Assembly (NCBI RefSeq): GCF_001424755.1 | Contig: NZ_LMRF01000005.1 | Location: forward strand, 1-64,000 | Direction: 5' to 3' | Length of the DNA stretch: 64,000 nucleotides | Origin: Marmoricola sp. Leaf446 | Lineage (GTDB): Bacteria; Actinomycetota; Actinomycetes; Propionibacteriales; Nocardioidaceae | In this document: piece by piece, positions 11,361 through 50,906 of the stretch | How the letters are laid out: every line of letters begins with the position of its first letter | Position numbering within the stretch: position 1 is the stretch's first letter | The notes under the pieces: generated by a model | Databases searched by the model: none | Told to the model about the DNA's origin: nothing | The model's input: only the letters and a program-made list of their open reading frames with translations | Made by a program: the position numbers and the translations under genes

Positions 11361-12470
11361 TCACGCCACCGCGCCGGCGCCGCCGGCGGGGTCGGCCAGG
11401 GCACGCACCACCGACCGCGCCGTGCGCACCAGGACACCGCGCCCCGCCCGGCCGGGGCCGGCACCGAGATCGATGGACTCGTCGAGCCCGCGCTGGTCCG
11501 ACATGGCGGCCAGCAGCGGGAGCCGCAGCAGCCGGGCGGCCGCCTCCGGGGTCACGCCGCCCGCCCCTCCCCTGGTCACCAGGTGGCGTCGGGGCAGCGG
11601 CTCGGGCAACCGGGCGGCCACGCGCGACGCCGCGCTCACCGCCGGGACGGTCAGCCGGGAGACCACCACGACGTGGTCGCAGCGCACCGTGGCCTCCTCC
11701 GCGACCGGGTCGGGGTGCCGGGGCAGGTCGACCACGACCGTGTCGAAGCCGCGACGCCCGGCGCTGAGCACCTCGCGGACCGCGAACGCCTGCAGCCGCC
11801 CACCCCGGTCCGGGGGCCAGGTCAGCACCGACAGGTCGCCCGACCTCGGCAGCGCCTCGCGCAGCGACCGTGCGCTCAGCCGGCCGGTGGTGCGGTGCAG
11901 CGCGTCCCACCGGATGCCGTCGGCGCCGTCGAGCCCCAGCACCCGGTCGAGCCCGGCCCCCAGCGGGTCGGCGTCGACCAGCAGCGTCGGGCCGAGCTCG
12001 GCGGCCGCCCGCGCGACCGCGGCGGCCAGCACGGTCGCCCCAGCGCCACCGCTGCCCCCGACCACCCCCACCGTCACGCCGGGCACGCCGCCCCCGTCGC
12101 CGACGTCGGTGAGCATCTCCACCAGCCAGGTCTCCGAGGCCGGCAGCTCGCTCACCGTCTCGGCGCCGAGGGCGAGGGCGTGCCGGAAGTGTCCGTCGTC
12201 GACCGGAGCCCGGCCGAGCAGGTGCACCCGCGGTCGCCGCGGGGGCCGGCAGTCGGCCAGCCCGGCGGCGCAGTCGGCCCCGACCAGCACGACCGAGGCC
12301 GCGGTCCAGGCTCGCAGCGCCTGCACCGAGTCGTGCACGACCAGCGGCACGACACCCGCGGCGGCGGCCAGCCGCTGCACGTCGGAGACCAGCAGGGGGT
12401 CGGCGGAGAGCAGCAGCGGGGACGCGTCCGGCCCGGAGGTCAGGGGCGGGGTCGGGTCCGAGGTGTCCAT
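11361..12470 (-). CDS. CpaE/TadZ-like P-loop protein (Rv3660c-like)
   Basis: A 369-residue protein. It has a receiver-like N-terminal half (about 20-120) and a MinD/ParA-type domain beginning VGVVGGSGGAGATVL (about 132-146), with LLVDADPLGAGLDRVLG after it. TadZ/CpaE proteins place the pilus machinery in the cell. The deviant Walker A lacks both lysines of the KGGxGK motif, so ATP hydrolysis is doubtful; I recall the mycobacterial homologue as similarly altered. It is the first gene of the tad operon. It starts at ATG 12470 without a clear ribosome site. Confidence 0.82.
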   Translation of the reverse strand: MDTSDPTPPLTSGPDASPLLLSADPLLVSDVQRLAAAAGVVPLVVHDSVQALRAWTAASVVLVGADCAAGLADCRPPRRPRVHLLGRAPVDDGHFRHALALGAETVSELPASETWLVEMLTDVGDGGGVPGVTVGVVGGSGGAGATVLAAAVARAAAELGPTLLVDADPLGAGLDRVLGLDGADGIRWDALHRTTGRLSARSLREALPRSGDLSVLTWPPDRGGRLQAFAVREVLSAGRRGFDTVVVDLPRHPDPVAEEATVRCDHVVVVSRLTVPAVSAASRVAARLPEPLPRRHLVTRGGAGGVTPEAAARLLRLPLLAAMSDQRGLDESIDLGAGPGRAGRGVLVRTARSVVRALADPAGGAGAVA

Positions 12471-12598
12471 GGCGCCAGCGTCCGCGCCGGGCCCGGCCCC
12501 CCGGAGGCACGGCCCCCGGCCTGTGGACGGACCACGTCGTCGCCGGGGCTGTGGACGCCAACTGGCGCGAACGGACCGGGACGAAAGGGATGTCCACC

Positions 12599-12604
12599 TA
12601 GACT
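12599..12604 (+). promoter_or_regulatory. Minus-10 hexamer for a leaderless mRNA
   Basis: TAGACT ends 6 bases before the ATG at 12611. That spacing puts the transcription start at or next to the start codon, so the phosphatase mRNA is probably leaderless. No clear -35 element is visible. Confidence 0.5.
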
Positions 12605-12610
12605 CGGCCC

Positions 12611-13405
12611 ATGAGCCCGGGCCCGACGGCCGCCTTCTTCGACCTCGACAAGACGATCATCGCCAAGTCGAGCACGCTCGCCTTCAGCCGGGAGTTCCAG
12701 GCGGGCGGGCTGATCAGTCGCGGGGCGGTGCTGCGGTCGGCGTACGCCCAGTTCAGCTATCTCGTCCTGGGGGCCGACCACGACCAGATGGAGCGGCTGC
12801 GCCAGTTCATGAGCCGGCTGAGCACCGGGTGGGACGTGCAGACCGTGCAGGAGATCGTGGCCGACGCGCTGCACAACATCGTCGACCCCCTGGTGTACGC
12901 CGAGGCGGTGCGCCTGATCGCCGAGCACCACCAGGCCGGCCACGACGTCATCATCGTCTCGACCAGCGGGTCGGAGGTGGTCGAGCCGATCGGGGCGATG
13001 CTGGGGGCCGACCACGTCGTCGCGACCCGCATGGAGGTCGCCGACGGTCGCTACACCGGCGGCATCACCTTCTACGCCTACGGCGAGAACAAGGCGATCG
13101 CCGTCCGGCAGCTCGCCGAGGAGCGCGGCTACGACCTGCGGCGCTGCCACGCCTACAGCGACTCCATCACCGACGAGCCCATGCTCAGCGCCGTGGGTCA
13201 CCCCTTCGCCGTCAACCCCGACCGCGAGCTGCGCCGGCTGGCGCAGCGGCGCGGCTGGCCGGTGCTGGTCTTCGACAAGCCGGTCGCGCTGCGCAGCCGG
13301 GTGCGGTTCCCGCCGGTGCGCCGCACGGCCGCGGCCGTGGGGGTCGTGGCGGTGCTGTCCGTCGGGGTGGTCGCGTGGCTCGGCGTACGCCGCCGCGACG
13401 CCTGA
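12611..13405 (+). CDS. HAD-IB family phosphatase with C-terminal membrane anchor (Rv3661-like)
   Basis: A 264-residue protein. The nucleophile motif FDLDKT places the catalytic aspartates at 11 and 13, and SDSITDEPML near 180 supplies the Mg2+-binding acidic pair. The family resembles SerB and is often annotated as a phosphoserine phosphatase, but the true substrate of this subgroup is not established. A C-terminal hydrophobic helix (about 236-258) followed by RRRDA suggests anchoring with the enzyme in the cytosol. It is divergent from the tad operon, the same arrangement as Rv3660c/Rv3661. Confidence 0.88.
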   Translation: MSPGPTAAFFDLDKTIIAKSSTLAFSREFQAGGLISRGAVLRSAYAQFSYLVLGADHDQMERLRQFMSRLSTGWDVQTVQEIVADALHNIVDPLVYAEAVRLIAEHHQAGHDVIIVSTSGSEVVEPIGAMLGADHVVATRMEVADGRYTGGITFYAYGENKAIAVRQLAEERGYDLRRCHAYSDSITDEPMLSAVGHPFAVNPDRELRRLAQRRGWPVLVFDKPVALRSRVRFPPVRRTAAAVGVVAVLSVGVVAWLGVRRRDA

Positions 13406-13450
13406 TCCGCCGCTGACCTGCGAACTCCTCGCCCGCCGGGAAGTCAAGCC

Positions 13451-13479
13451 TTGTGGCGCACGTCACGTCGGCGTACAAA
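13451..13479 (+). promoter_or_regulatory. Candidate promoter of the structured intergenic RNA
   Basis: TTGTGG at 13451-13456 and TACAAA at 13474-13479 are separated by 17 bases, the ideal housekeeping-sigma spacing. They match the consensus hexamers at 3 and 4 of 6 positions. A transcript would begin near 13486. No open reading frame with sensible coding character follows on this strand. Confidence 0.45.
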
Positions 13480-13485
13480 GGAGGA

Positions 13486-13690
13486 ACAACTCCACAGGAC
13501 CACACACGGCGCCGGTACCCACGCGGCGATCCCCCTTCCTACAGGGCGCAGGTCCCCCGGGCACGCCCGGAGGCCGCAGTTAGAGAGTGCACGCCTGGTA
13601 GCCATGGCGACGTGTGTCGAGCGGCATCGAGAACGCGTAGGACACAGCTACGCACTCCCGGTGCCGCTCACCTGTGTGCCGGTGCTGCTA
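13486..13690 (+). ncRNA. Candidate Ms1/MTS2823-like small RNA
   Basis: A 282-bp gap separates the Rv3661-like and Rv3662c-like genes, which is exactly where mycobacteria encode the abundant Ms1/MTS2823 RNA that binds core RNA polymerase. Two nested perfect helices are present: 13619-13626 with 13662-13669, and 13635-13640 with 13648-13653. They are separated by 8-base single-stranded segments on both sides, an open-bubble layout like that of 6S RNA. C-rich runs occur at about 13532 and 13553. Sequence homology was not tested, and the boundaries are estimated from the promoter and the downstream gene. Confidence 0.5.
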
Positions 13691-14434
13691 CCCGCGCAGC
13701 GGGCTGCTCTCGGCGCCCCGGGCCTGCGCCTCCGCGGCGTACAGCAGCCAGGCGTGCAGGCCGGACCGGCCGCCGGTGGCGTAGCCGCGCAGGTTGGACT
13801 CGTACTCCGCCCGCAGCGCGAGGTGGCCGGCCTCGGGGACGACGAGCGAGGCGGGGTCGACGCCACGCGCCACCAGGACCAGCCGCTCGGCGGCGCGGGC
13901 GACCAGGCCGTTGTGGGCCGAGAAGGGCGCGGCGCTGACGACCTCGGCGTGCACGAGCGCGGCGAGCAGCAGCGCGGGCACGCGCGTGGCCAGCACGGTC
14001 CGGCCCAGCGAGCGGAGCCGCTCGGCCGCCTCGGGCGAGACCGGGCGGCCGGGGTCGGGGGCGCCGGTGAGGGCGTGGACCCGGGCCAGCGCCTGCAGCG
14101 GGGCCTGGCCCAGCACGGGGACGAGCGAGAGCAGCTCGGTGCTGACCCGGACCGCCGCGGCGGCGACGTCGTCGCCGGTGCCGTCGCGGACCTCCTCGAG
14201 GGTGGAGGTCGACCCCGCGAGCGCCGCGCTCGCGTGCGCCCCGCGCAGCAGCGACTCCGCGGTCTGCGCCGGGGTGCTGCGCCGCAGGCCGCGGTCGCGC
14301 AGGAGCGCGTCGATGCCGTCGCGGGTCGAGGCGAAGCCCGACGGCACGCCCTCGAGACCGGTCAGCCACTCCAGGGGGTCCGGCGAGCCGGTCGCGGTGC
14401 GGGACGAGGGGGGCTCGGGGGGGACGGGGGACAC
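13688..14434 (-). CDS. Degenerate Fic-fold protein (Rv3662c-like)
   Basis: A 248-residue protein without membrane segments. The stretch VHAEVVSAAPFSAHNGLVAR (161-180) lines up with the Fic active-site helix and loop HxFx(D/E)GNGRxxR. Phe171, Asn175, Gly176 and Arg180 are kept, but the catalytic His is Ala169, the acidic residue is Ala173 and the first Arg is Leu177. An STSTLEE segment at 75-81 sits where Fic inhibitory helices place (S/T)xxxE. It is therefore probably not an AMP-transferase. It is convergent with the RNA candidate and the HAD gene. The role is unknown. Confidence 0.7.
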   Translation of the reverse strand: MSPVPPEPPSSRTATGSPDPLEWLTGLEGVPSGFASTRDGIDALLRDRGLRRSTPAQTAESLLRGAHASAALAGSTSTLEEVRDGTGDDVAAAAVRVSTELLSLVPVLGQAPLQALARVHALTGAPDPGRPVSPEAAERLRSLGRTVLATRVPALLLAALVHAEVVSAAPFSAHNGLVARAAERLVLVARGVDPASLVVPEAGHLALRAEYESNLRGYATGGRSGLHAWLLYAAEAQARGAESSPLRG

Positions 14435-43007: not shown

Positions 43008-43084
43008 CGGGGTGTGGCGCAGCTTGGTAGCGCGCGTCGTTCGGGACGACGAGGCCGCAGGTTCAAATCCTGTCACCCCGACCA
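43008..43084 (+). tRNA. tRNA-Pro(CGG)
   Basis: Acceptor strand CGGGGTG (43008-43014) pairs with CACCCCG (43074-43080). The anticodon stem CGTCG/CGACG holds the loop TTCGGGA, giving anticodon CGG. The T-arm contains GTTCAAATC. The 3' CCA (43082-43084) is encoded. TATAGA at about 42989 is a likely -10 element. Confidence 0.96.
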
Positions 43085-50581: not shown

Positions 50582-50649
50582 CCGGTCACCCTAACGACCG
50601 GCGCCGACAGGCGTACGACGGCCGCGTCGAGGCGCTCCGGGGAGCGAAA

Positions 50650-50738
50650 GGCCCCCCGTGCACCCGGCAGAGCCCACCTGCCCTTGCTGCCTTCCGGCCC
50701 TGGGGGAGTTCAGTGAGGTACCGCCGCACGGGGGGTTG
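50650..50738 (-). ncRNA. ffs: Signal recognition particle RNA (4.5S-like)
   Basis: Read on the minus strand, the hallmark CCGGAAGGCAGCAAGGGCAG of the SRP RNA domain IV is present. The ends close by pairing of CCCCCCGTGC with GCACGGGGGG (50726-50735 and 50652-50661). It lies directly upstream of dnaX, the usual actinobacterial place. The core is about 84-90 bases and the ends are approximate. Confidence 0.93.
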
Positions 50739-50821: not shown

Positions 50822-50906
50822 GGAGGATTCGCCTAGTGGCCTATGGCGCTCGCTTGGAAAGCGGGTTGGGTTAACGCCCTCAGGGGTTCGAATCCCCTAT
50901 CCTCCG
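50822..50906 (+). tRNA. tRNA-Ser(GGA)
   Basis: Acceptor GGAGGAT (50822-50828) pairs with ATCCTCC (50899-50905), with discriminator G. The anticodon loop TTGGAAA gives GGA. A long variable arm (TTGGGTTAACGCCCTCA region) and GTTCGAATC in the T-arm confirm a class II serine tRNA. No CCA is encoded. Confidence 0.96.

Follow-up and report, generated by a model that had tools for sequence, protein, structure and literature searches.

Results

A Non-Coding Gap between Convergent Genes

In a 64,000-nucleotide stretch of DNA from Marmoricola sp. Leaf446 (hereafter, the window), an HAD-IB hydrolase gene and a weakly Fic-like gene on the opposite strand converge on a short gap (Table 1). The upstream gene scores 196.7 bits against TIGR01490 (cut-off 98.3), and the convergent gene has no domain match at E ≤ 0.001. 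A preliminary description of this DNA had placed the gap between Rv3661-like and Rv3662c-like genes and equated it with the position of the Ms1 RNA; the TIGR01490 assignment upstream bears this out and, judged from the sequence, the gap is the Ms1 locus, with the HAD-IB gene adjoining the predicted RNA (gene end at 13405) as is characteristic of Ms1. The gap was also described as free of coding sequence. Each of the six frames is open in just 9–18 of 50 homologues, and the lengths of these homologues (n = 50) spread evenly over all three classes modulo 3, which together indicate that the region is not coding.

Two observations concern other RNAs. In the interval from ssd to the HAD gene (window positions 12400–12700), a search for 6C RNA (RF01066) found nothing at E ≤ 1; that model exceeds its cut-off at 7/7 mycobacterial-family loci tested and at 4/10 other loci. 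Elsewhere the window carries an ordinary small SRP RNA (50647–50737) and two tRNA genes (43008–43081 and 50822–50906).

Table 1. Genes, promoter elements and predicted RNA segments at the locus (window coordinates).
Feature	Position	Strand	Remarks
HAD-IB hydrolase (Rv3661 / SCO3558 position)	12611–13405	+	TIGR01490; conserved upstream neighbour of Ms1
AAGTCAAG upstream element beside the −35	13441–13448	+	TCAA conserved at fixed offset
Predicted Ms1 promoter: TTGTGG (13451–13456), 17 bp, TACAAA (13474–13479)	13451–13479	+	Strict pattern conserved in relatives
Predicted Ms1 RNA, ~190 nt	13486–13679	+	Start deduced from the −10; end set by model R2 (13674) plus 2–6 nt
Short 5′ leader ahead of P1, without 5′ hairpin	13486–13501	+	28 nt from 13486 to core GG at 13514
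Helix P1, 5′ strand, pairs with 13609–13617	13502–13510	+	Both partners changed in 8/9 pairs; pairing in 92.4% of cells
Core motif GGTACCCACGCGGCGA, 5′ strand of core helix P2	13514–13529	+	Near invariant in Nocardioidaceae; 13514–13528 pairs with 13588–13603
Small apical hairpin CCCT..AGGG	13533–13546	+	94% of cells paired; double change in 1/4 pairs
Apical arm, two short helices	13548–13577	+	Both partners changed in 8/9 pairs; pairing in 83% and 89% of cells
Core helix P2, 3′ strand TGCACGCCTGGTAGCC	13588–13603	+	Near invariant
Helix P1, 3′ strand	13609–13617	+	Covariation in alignment A2
3′ hairpin, with both helices of the preliminary description	13618–13672	+	12/15 pairs changed on both sides; 14/15 outside the family
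Convergent gene (Rv3662c position), weakly Fic-like	13688–14434	−	PF02661 E 0.024, 15.9 bits, below cut-off of 24

Comparative Sets and Models

The comparison started from 150 oriented loci, of which 94 carry the core motif (≤2 mismatches) and enough sequence; 88 of these are distinct, and 62, one of them from Kribbella (L122), were kept at under 80% identity. One locus from a MAG labelled Spirochaetaceae (L124) was left out of the 62; its HAD gene is of the actinobacterial type, an Ms1-like core (2 mismatches) comes after that gene, and the MAG is probably mislabelled or mis-binned. Alignment A2 comprises 50 of the 62, after 12 divergent loci (L016, L021, L047, L057, L061, L062, L063, L066, L068, L069, L071, and L072) were dropped by hand, and was made by ordinary MAFFT. 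Two covariance models were used: R1, from the 62 loci in a poorer alignment with 15 pairs, and R2, with 49 pairs, built from Nocardioidaceae with one Kribbella included. Alignment A3 holds 49 sequences from outside the family, namely 40 of the 53 outside loci searched with R2 and 9 further loci from the R1 search.

A Conserved Promoter Pattern Upstream of the Predicted RNA

Strict sigma-70 and terminator consensus scans of 13300–13800 detected nothing, so conservation had to decide. A promoter candidate with a 17-bp spacer had been proposed here, and both hexamers and their spacing were located exactly as described. The pattern TTG-N3-16/18-TA[CGT][AG][AC][ACT] occurs upstream of the RNA in 46 of the 62 non-redundant loci, compared to 0.3 in mononucleotide shuffles, with a spacer of 17 bp in 44 of the 46; it is absent from the other 16 relatives. 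The hexamer TA[CG]A[AC][AC] alone is found in 56/62 loci versus 6.1 in shuffles, and a −10 of the TACAAA/TAGAAA type also precedes the Streptomyces and mycobacterial-family loci. This conserved pattern predicts that the RNA has a sigma-A-like promoter of its own, a further feature by which Ms1 is recognized. Beside the −35, TCAA lies at exactly −7 in 24 of the 47 loci with a called promoter and in 0–3 at every other offset tested. In five promoters, TCAA of the AAAGTCAA box (13441–13448 in the window, and relatives) is at −16 to −18, roughly one more helical turn upstream; an activator or polymerase touching the DNA from one face would be compatible with this spacing.

A CRP-like dyad, TGTGA-N6-TCACA (≥8/10 letters), was also noted upstream of the Ms1 start, in the −35/−10 region in the cases where both were visible. 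The window copy (13452–13467) scores 8/10. The dyad is present in 16 of 23 mycobacterial-family loci (among L157–L185; shuffles expect 0.51), six of them perfect, in 7/62 Nocardioidaceae including the window (0.73 expected), and in 0/16 Streptomycetaceae. It may tie Ms1 to cAMP; the available portion of PMC4117774 reports CRP at ncRv13660c, which lies nearby, with no mention of Rv3661 or Rv3662.

A Covariation-Supported Fold with a Near-Invariant Core

Folding of 13486–13674 gave −90.4 kcal/mol (z −4.14), with none of 200 shuffles as good, and with these homology-derived ends the minimum free energy structure holds 34 of the 44 consensus pairs possible in the window sequence. A longer fold, 13486–13687, gave z −3.03 with 1/200 shuffles as good; its guessed 3′ end was rejected, as the ends paired differently from the homology-derived ones. 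We placed the 3′ end at 13679, which is the R2 end (13674) plus the usual 5 nt (2–6 across 15 genomes) by which RF02566, the Rfam model of Ms1, runs past R2.

Across A2, the 49-pair structure is paired in 92% of cells, shows double changes at 30 of 49 pairs, and has a covariation score of 0.306, whereas the same structure slid along the alignment scores 0.069–0.081, about a quarter of that value. The preliminary description had proposed comparative folding in relatives and held that absent covariation would count against the RNA; compensatory changes support the helices, those of the 3′ hairpin included, and 0/500 shuffles reach the paired fraction, the double changes or the score. A structure-free test (average-product-corrected G statistic) over 12,090 column pairs of the same MAFFT alignment, made without structure and uncorrected for a tree, placed structure pairs at ranks 1–6, at 8 of the top 10, and at 13 of the top 30. 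The 3′ hairpin holds the most strongly covarying pairs. In contrast, the core helix (GGTACCCACGCGGCG/TGCACGCCTGGTAGCC) rests on conservation rather than covariation because its strands are almost invariant and few of its pairs show more than slight variation. In A3, drawn from outside the family, the 49-pair structure scores 0.252 versus 0.039–0.058 when slid, and is reached by 0/500 shuffles; as A3 was fitted to R2 and picked for good R2 matches, its pair counts lean towards the structure.

The conserved body, 13498–13620, lies upstream of the two helices named in the preliminary description; it is the more important part, and was missed there. Those helices (13619–13626/13662–13669 and 13635–13640/13648–13653) are both perfect and real, but they make up just the 3′ hairpin and not the most conserved part of the RNA. 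The symmetric 8-base internal loops reported with them did not hold up: 5 of the 8 positions are paired, so that the whole is one long, slightly interrupted hairpin. It is probably the terminator, without a U tract here. P1 has one mismatch in the window sequence, at 13509/13610. The motif GG[TCA]ACCCACGCG is also present in Streptomyces, Rhodococcus, and Kribbella loci, and an ACGC-UGGU core recurs at the place of the P2 3′ strand in R2 matches outside the Nocardioidaceae.

A Predicted Single-Copy Transcription Unit That Can Move

Both R1 and R2 find one match in the window's genome, indicating a single copy. Within the family, R1 matches 142 of 149 genomes (125/128 of those with ≥90% completeness and ≤5% contamination) and misses 7, giving one match per genome except in G047, a bin with 3% contamination and two HAD genes, which has two. 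Both sampled genomes of genus g12 (G012 and G034) carry the HAD gene and lack an R1 match, a possible loss of Ms1. The great majority of the 143 family matches (122) share the strand of the HAD gene and lie 0–600 nt downstream of it, 15 sit 0.6–10 kb downstream, 4 are inverted, and 2 lie on another contig.

When 14 displaced, distant or inverted loci were searched with R2, 13 gave a match spanning the full 164 positions (6 of these are inverted, 5 are displaced by >0.6 kb, and 2 by ~0.55 kb) and one (L106) gave no match. The strict promoter is kept in 12 of these 13; that promoter scan covered 19 loci, 5 of them without a core motif within the stretch scanned. Because copies that are displaced or inverted still match the model in full and in most cases retain the promoter, the RNA behaves as a self-contained transcription unit that can move and not as an appendage of the HAD mRNA. 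In the four loci where the whole unit is inverted relative to the HAD gene (L022, L029, L067, and L102; 4/143), the promoter region travels along; the strict promoter pattern fails in L067.

Homology to Ms1 beyond the Family

Rfam searches of the window region, at gathering threshold and at E ≤ 10, gave nothing relevant; RF02566 was not among the matches at E ≤ 10 for window positions 13000–14200, the window RNA does not reach the curated score of that model (≥162 bits), and 0/149 family genomes are matched. Among 296 genomes of the class, RF02566 matches 30 (27 in family f5, two in f18, and one in f41) and passes its cut-off in 19, all f5, with no match in its 14 control genomes. We take f5 to be the mycobacterial family, as the same places recur in two of the searches made, and f18, as a guess, to be Streptomyces.

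Model R2 reaches well outside the family. At E ≤ 1e-4 it matches 23 of 29 mycobacterial-family loci (the best-scoring HAD matches, an HAD match being present in 55/61 genomes) and 16 of 24 other outside loci, with best E values of 2.4e-11 in the mycobacterial family (L161), 1e-10 in Streptomyces (L150), and 2e-13 in a Sporichthyaceae MAG (L128). Rhodococcus L137, of the same mycobacterial family, scores poorly (E 0.041 with R1 and 0.31 with R2). Searches of the 296 whole genomes gave R2 matches in 136 (109/269 outside the family) and R1 matches in 122 (95/269 outside), with a second, weak R2 match in 2/296 (G384 and G430). For 60 of the 95 outside R1 matches the place of the HAD gene was listed, and at least 37 lie directly downstream of it, at least 19 within 15 kb, and at least 4 elsewhere. 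Across 179 genomes from the phylum's other classes, R2 gave one weak 56-nt match (E 0.0036), about the chance level.

The two models converge on the same sites. Three of seven mycobacterial-family loci tested pass the RF02566 cut-off, and R2 and RF02566 cover the same place in all three; across genomes matched by both, they overlap in 15 of 15 (tables compared by eye), including two f18 genomes (G376 and G480) that RF02566 reaches just at E 3e-5. One R1 match, at 948490 in G278, lies off the Ms1 place and was regarded as false; in that genome, R2 and RF02566 agree on a different place. In covariance-model searches, the check advocated in the preliminary description, RF02566 has no match in the window and the Nocardioidaceae model finds the RF02566 places. 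These coincidences, together with the compensatory changes in the helices, uphold the claim made there of a structured RNA of the Ms1 type and support, at the level of sequence comparison, homology of the window RNA to Ms1 by sequence and structure and beyond position. The link is indirect, running through RF02566 and mycobacterial-family loci. A 17-base piece of an S. coelicolor primer is found in 0/215 loci, indicating that S. coelicolor itself is not in the locus set.

Two large genomes of family f16 (G226 and G258) have R2 matches at E 7.6e-14 and 8.4e-13 and no HAD match at 1e-50; these may represent Ms1 where the usual HAD neighbour has gone or diverged.

A Reduced Form of the RNA

Counting from 12 nt after the first −10 base to the R2 end yields lengths of 229 nt in Streptomyces L139 and 302 nt in mycobacterial-family L158, and the interval 13486–13674 (~190 nt) here. 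S. coelicolor Ms1 is reported as 228 nt by RACE (positions 3,934,693–3,934,920; PMC9130861), and the terminator of M. smegmatis Ms1 as lying 304 nt downstream of the start (PMC4191392). A transcript of about 200–300 nt had been anticipated, and our predicted length is at or below the low end of that range. The leader from start to core measures 28 nt here. At 34 of 37 loci outside the family it is 71–84 nt long and predicted to fold; the three exceptions are L128 (49 nt) and L150 and L151, whose −10 was mis-called. The core span is 123 nt here versus ~199 in L158, or ~75 nt less. Taken together, these values indicate that, in Nocardioidaceae, both the 5′ end and the apical part of the RNA are reduced. 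Kribbella and family f19 have a small leader stem, read from the sequence as GGACC-UUCG-GGUCC and GGACC-GCAA-GGUCC or similar.

Discussion

Proposed Function and Alternatives

We hold with high confidence that 13486 to ~13679 is a single-copy gene for an Ms1-type small RNA in a reduced form, which, we infer, would be transcribed and bind core RNA polymerase. The housekeeping holoenzyme would transcribe it from ~13486 at its own promoter, the transcript would end at the 3′ hairpin and accumulate as growth slows, and the RNA would bind core polymerase that is free of the primary sigma factor. It would use the core helix with its bubble for this and would thereby influence the amount of polymerase retained by the cell, an effect reported for Ms1 of M. 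smegmatis. For the polymerase contact, the natural candidate is the near-invariant core helix. In M. smegmatis, removal of the bubble reduced core binding (PMC4191392), and binding of Ms1 to RNA polymerase has been shown by immunoprecipitation in S. coelicolor and M. tuberculosis (PMC9130861, PMC11077062), with a minor part of S. coelicolor Ms1 also found with HrdB in stationary phase (PMC11077062). Our literature search found no transcript or protein-binding data for a member of the Nocardioidaceae.

A hairpin between convergent genes that also holds the strongest covarying pairs could suggest that the conserved part is no RNA gene at all and just serves the HAD and Fic-like genes as a (bidirectional) terminator or 3′ UTR. 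We regard this as highly unlikely, given that the hairpin is preceded by a conserved body with a predicted promoter of its own, that 15/143 family units lie 0.6–10 kb from the HAD gene and 4 are inverted, and that 13/14 relocated loci match all 164 R2 positions, 12/13 with the strict promoter. It is likewise very improbable that the RNA is a 6S RNA, which would bind the sigma-A holoenzyme and act as template for a product RNA: RF00013 finds nothing at E ≤ 1 in the window's genome and does match in 6/14 control genomes, even though ~190 nt is a typical 6S size and it was the search for 6S homologues that first turned up Ms1 (PMC4191392).

The RNA could also be an Ms1 homologue by descent that lost polymerase binding along with the 5′ hairpin and part of the apical arm, as the 28-nt leader and the 123-nt core span, set against the longer outside forms, might imply. 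Its core columns, however, are the most conserved of the alignment, and the near-invariant core is probably the counterpart of the conserved bubble that M. smegmatis Ms1 needs for full core binding (PMC4191392); we consider the loss of binding unlikely. Returning to a polymerase-binding Ms1, we give an even chance to the broader proposal that the Nocardioidaceae RNA is a natural minimal form. One homologous class would then run from Mycobacterium to Streptomyces; ~120 nt (P1 plus the invariant GGUACCCACGCG/GCACGCYUGGUAGCC helix) would be enough for sequence-specific core-polymerase binding; and the 5′ hairpin would be an accessory domain, lost here and represented by a small stem in Kribbella and one large-genome family.

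Relation to Earlier Predictions

A combination of annotation synteny and BLAST has predicted Ms1 in 824 species from 146 genera (PMC9130861), and Table 4 of that paper already lists Nocardioides and Marmoricola; the window's genome shares genus label g1 with Marmoricola endophyticus and N. pocheonensis. Hence, the expectation that a homologue here would extend the class is right as to the homologue and largely pre-empted as to the extension. The same paper, in the portion available, found no similarity of S. coelicolor Ms1 to M. smegmatis Ms1 by its cross-species BLAST and describes a homology search for Ms1 in Actinobacteria as unsuccessful, homologues being called by gene neighbourhood and BLAST between near relatives. 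It is the one paper our search found joining Ms1, small RNA and Nocardioides; a search for core-motif words gave nothing related among the matches listed. What we add is a covariation-supported structure for the Nocardioidaceae, a model linking groups that BLAST left unconnected, and the reduced form, which is short and still conserved enough for a model reaching both mycobacterial and Streptomyces loci. An argument from synteny becomes one from sequence and structure homology, copies moved off the HAD gene become findable, and the small invariant helix, a likely polymerase contact, is open to mutation.

Comparison with Known RNAs

The window RNA shares with Ms1 of M. smegmatis/MTS2823 (RF02566) the HAD-IB neighbour upstream, a sigma-A-like promoter, an A at the start (here predicted; start and promoter of M. 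smegmatis Ms1 from PMC4191392), a closing helix, the GG.ACCCACGCG and ACGC.UGGU core, and a 3′ hairpin. It differs in being ~190 rather than ~300 nt long, in lacking the 5′ hairpin and ~75 nt of core span, and in escaping detection by RF02566. Published descriptions give Ms1 as a long hairpin interrupted by an internal bubble, with conservation highest in the bubble and on either side of it (PMC4191392, PMC9130861); P1 and the near-invariant core helix with its mismatches would be the counterpart here. Two short hairpins near the ends are described for mycobacterial homologues, as a feature and not as a requirement (PMC4191392, PMC9130861); here the 3′ one is present and the 5′ one absent. Of the other polymerase-binding RNAs, 6S RNA (RF00013) is alike in size and in that property, and unlike in giving no RF00013 match. 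CoRP RNA of Corynebacterium is also an abundant polymerase-bound actinobacterial RNA (PMC11077062), set apart by description, not by sequence comparison, as ~500 nt long and lying beside tRNA genes.

With scr3559/Str13 of S. coelicolor the window RNA has the same neighbour and core in common, R2 matching Streptomyces loci to E 1e-10. The S. coelicolor RNA is 228 nt long (PMC9130861) with a longer leader, and the Streptomyces −35 region and upstream element differ. The −10 region of Streptomyces loci reads TACAAAGGA, which is also found in an S. coelicolor nested primer (PMC8539372), S. coelicolor itself being outside the locus set. The 6S-like RNA of PMC8539372 is on the strand opposite to Ms1; our Streptomyces loci agree with the strand given in PMC9130861.
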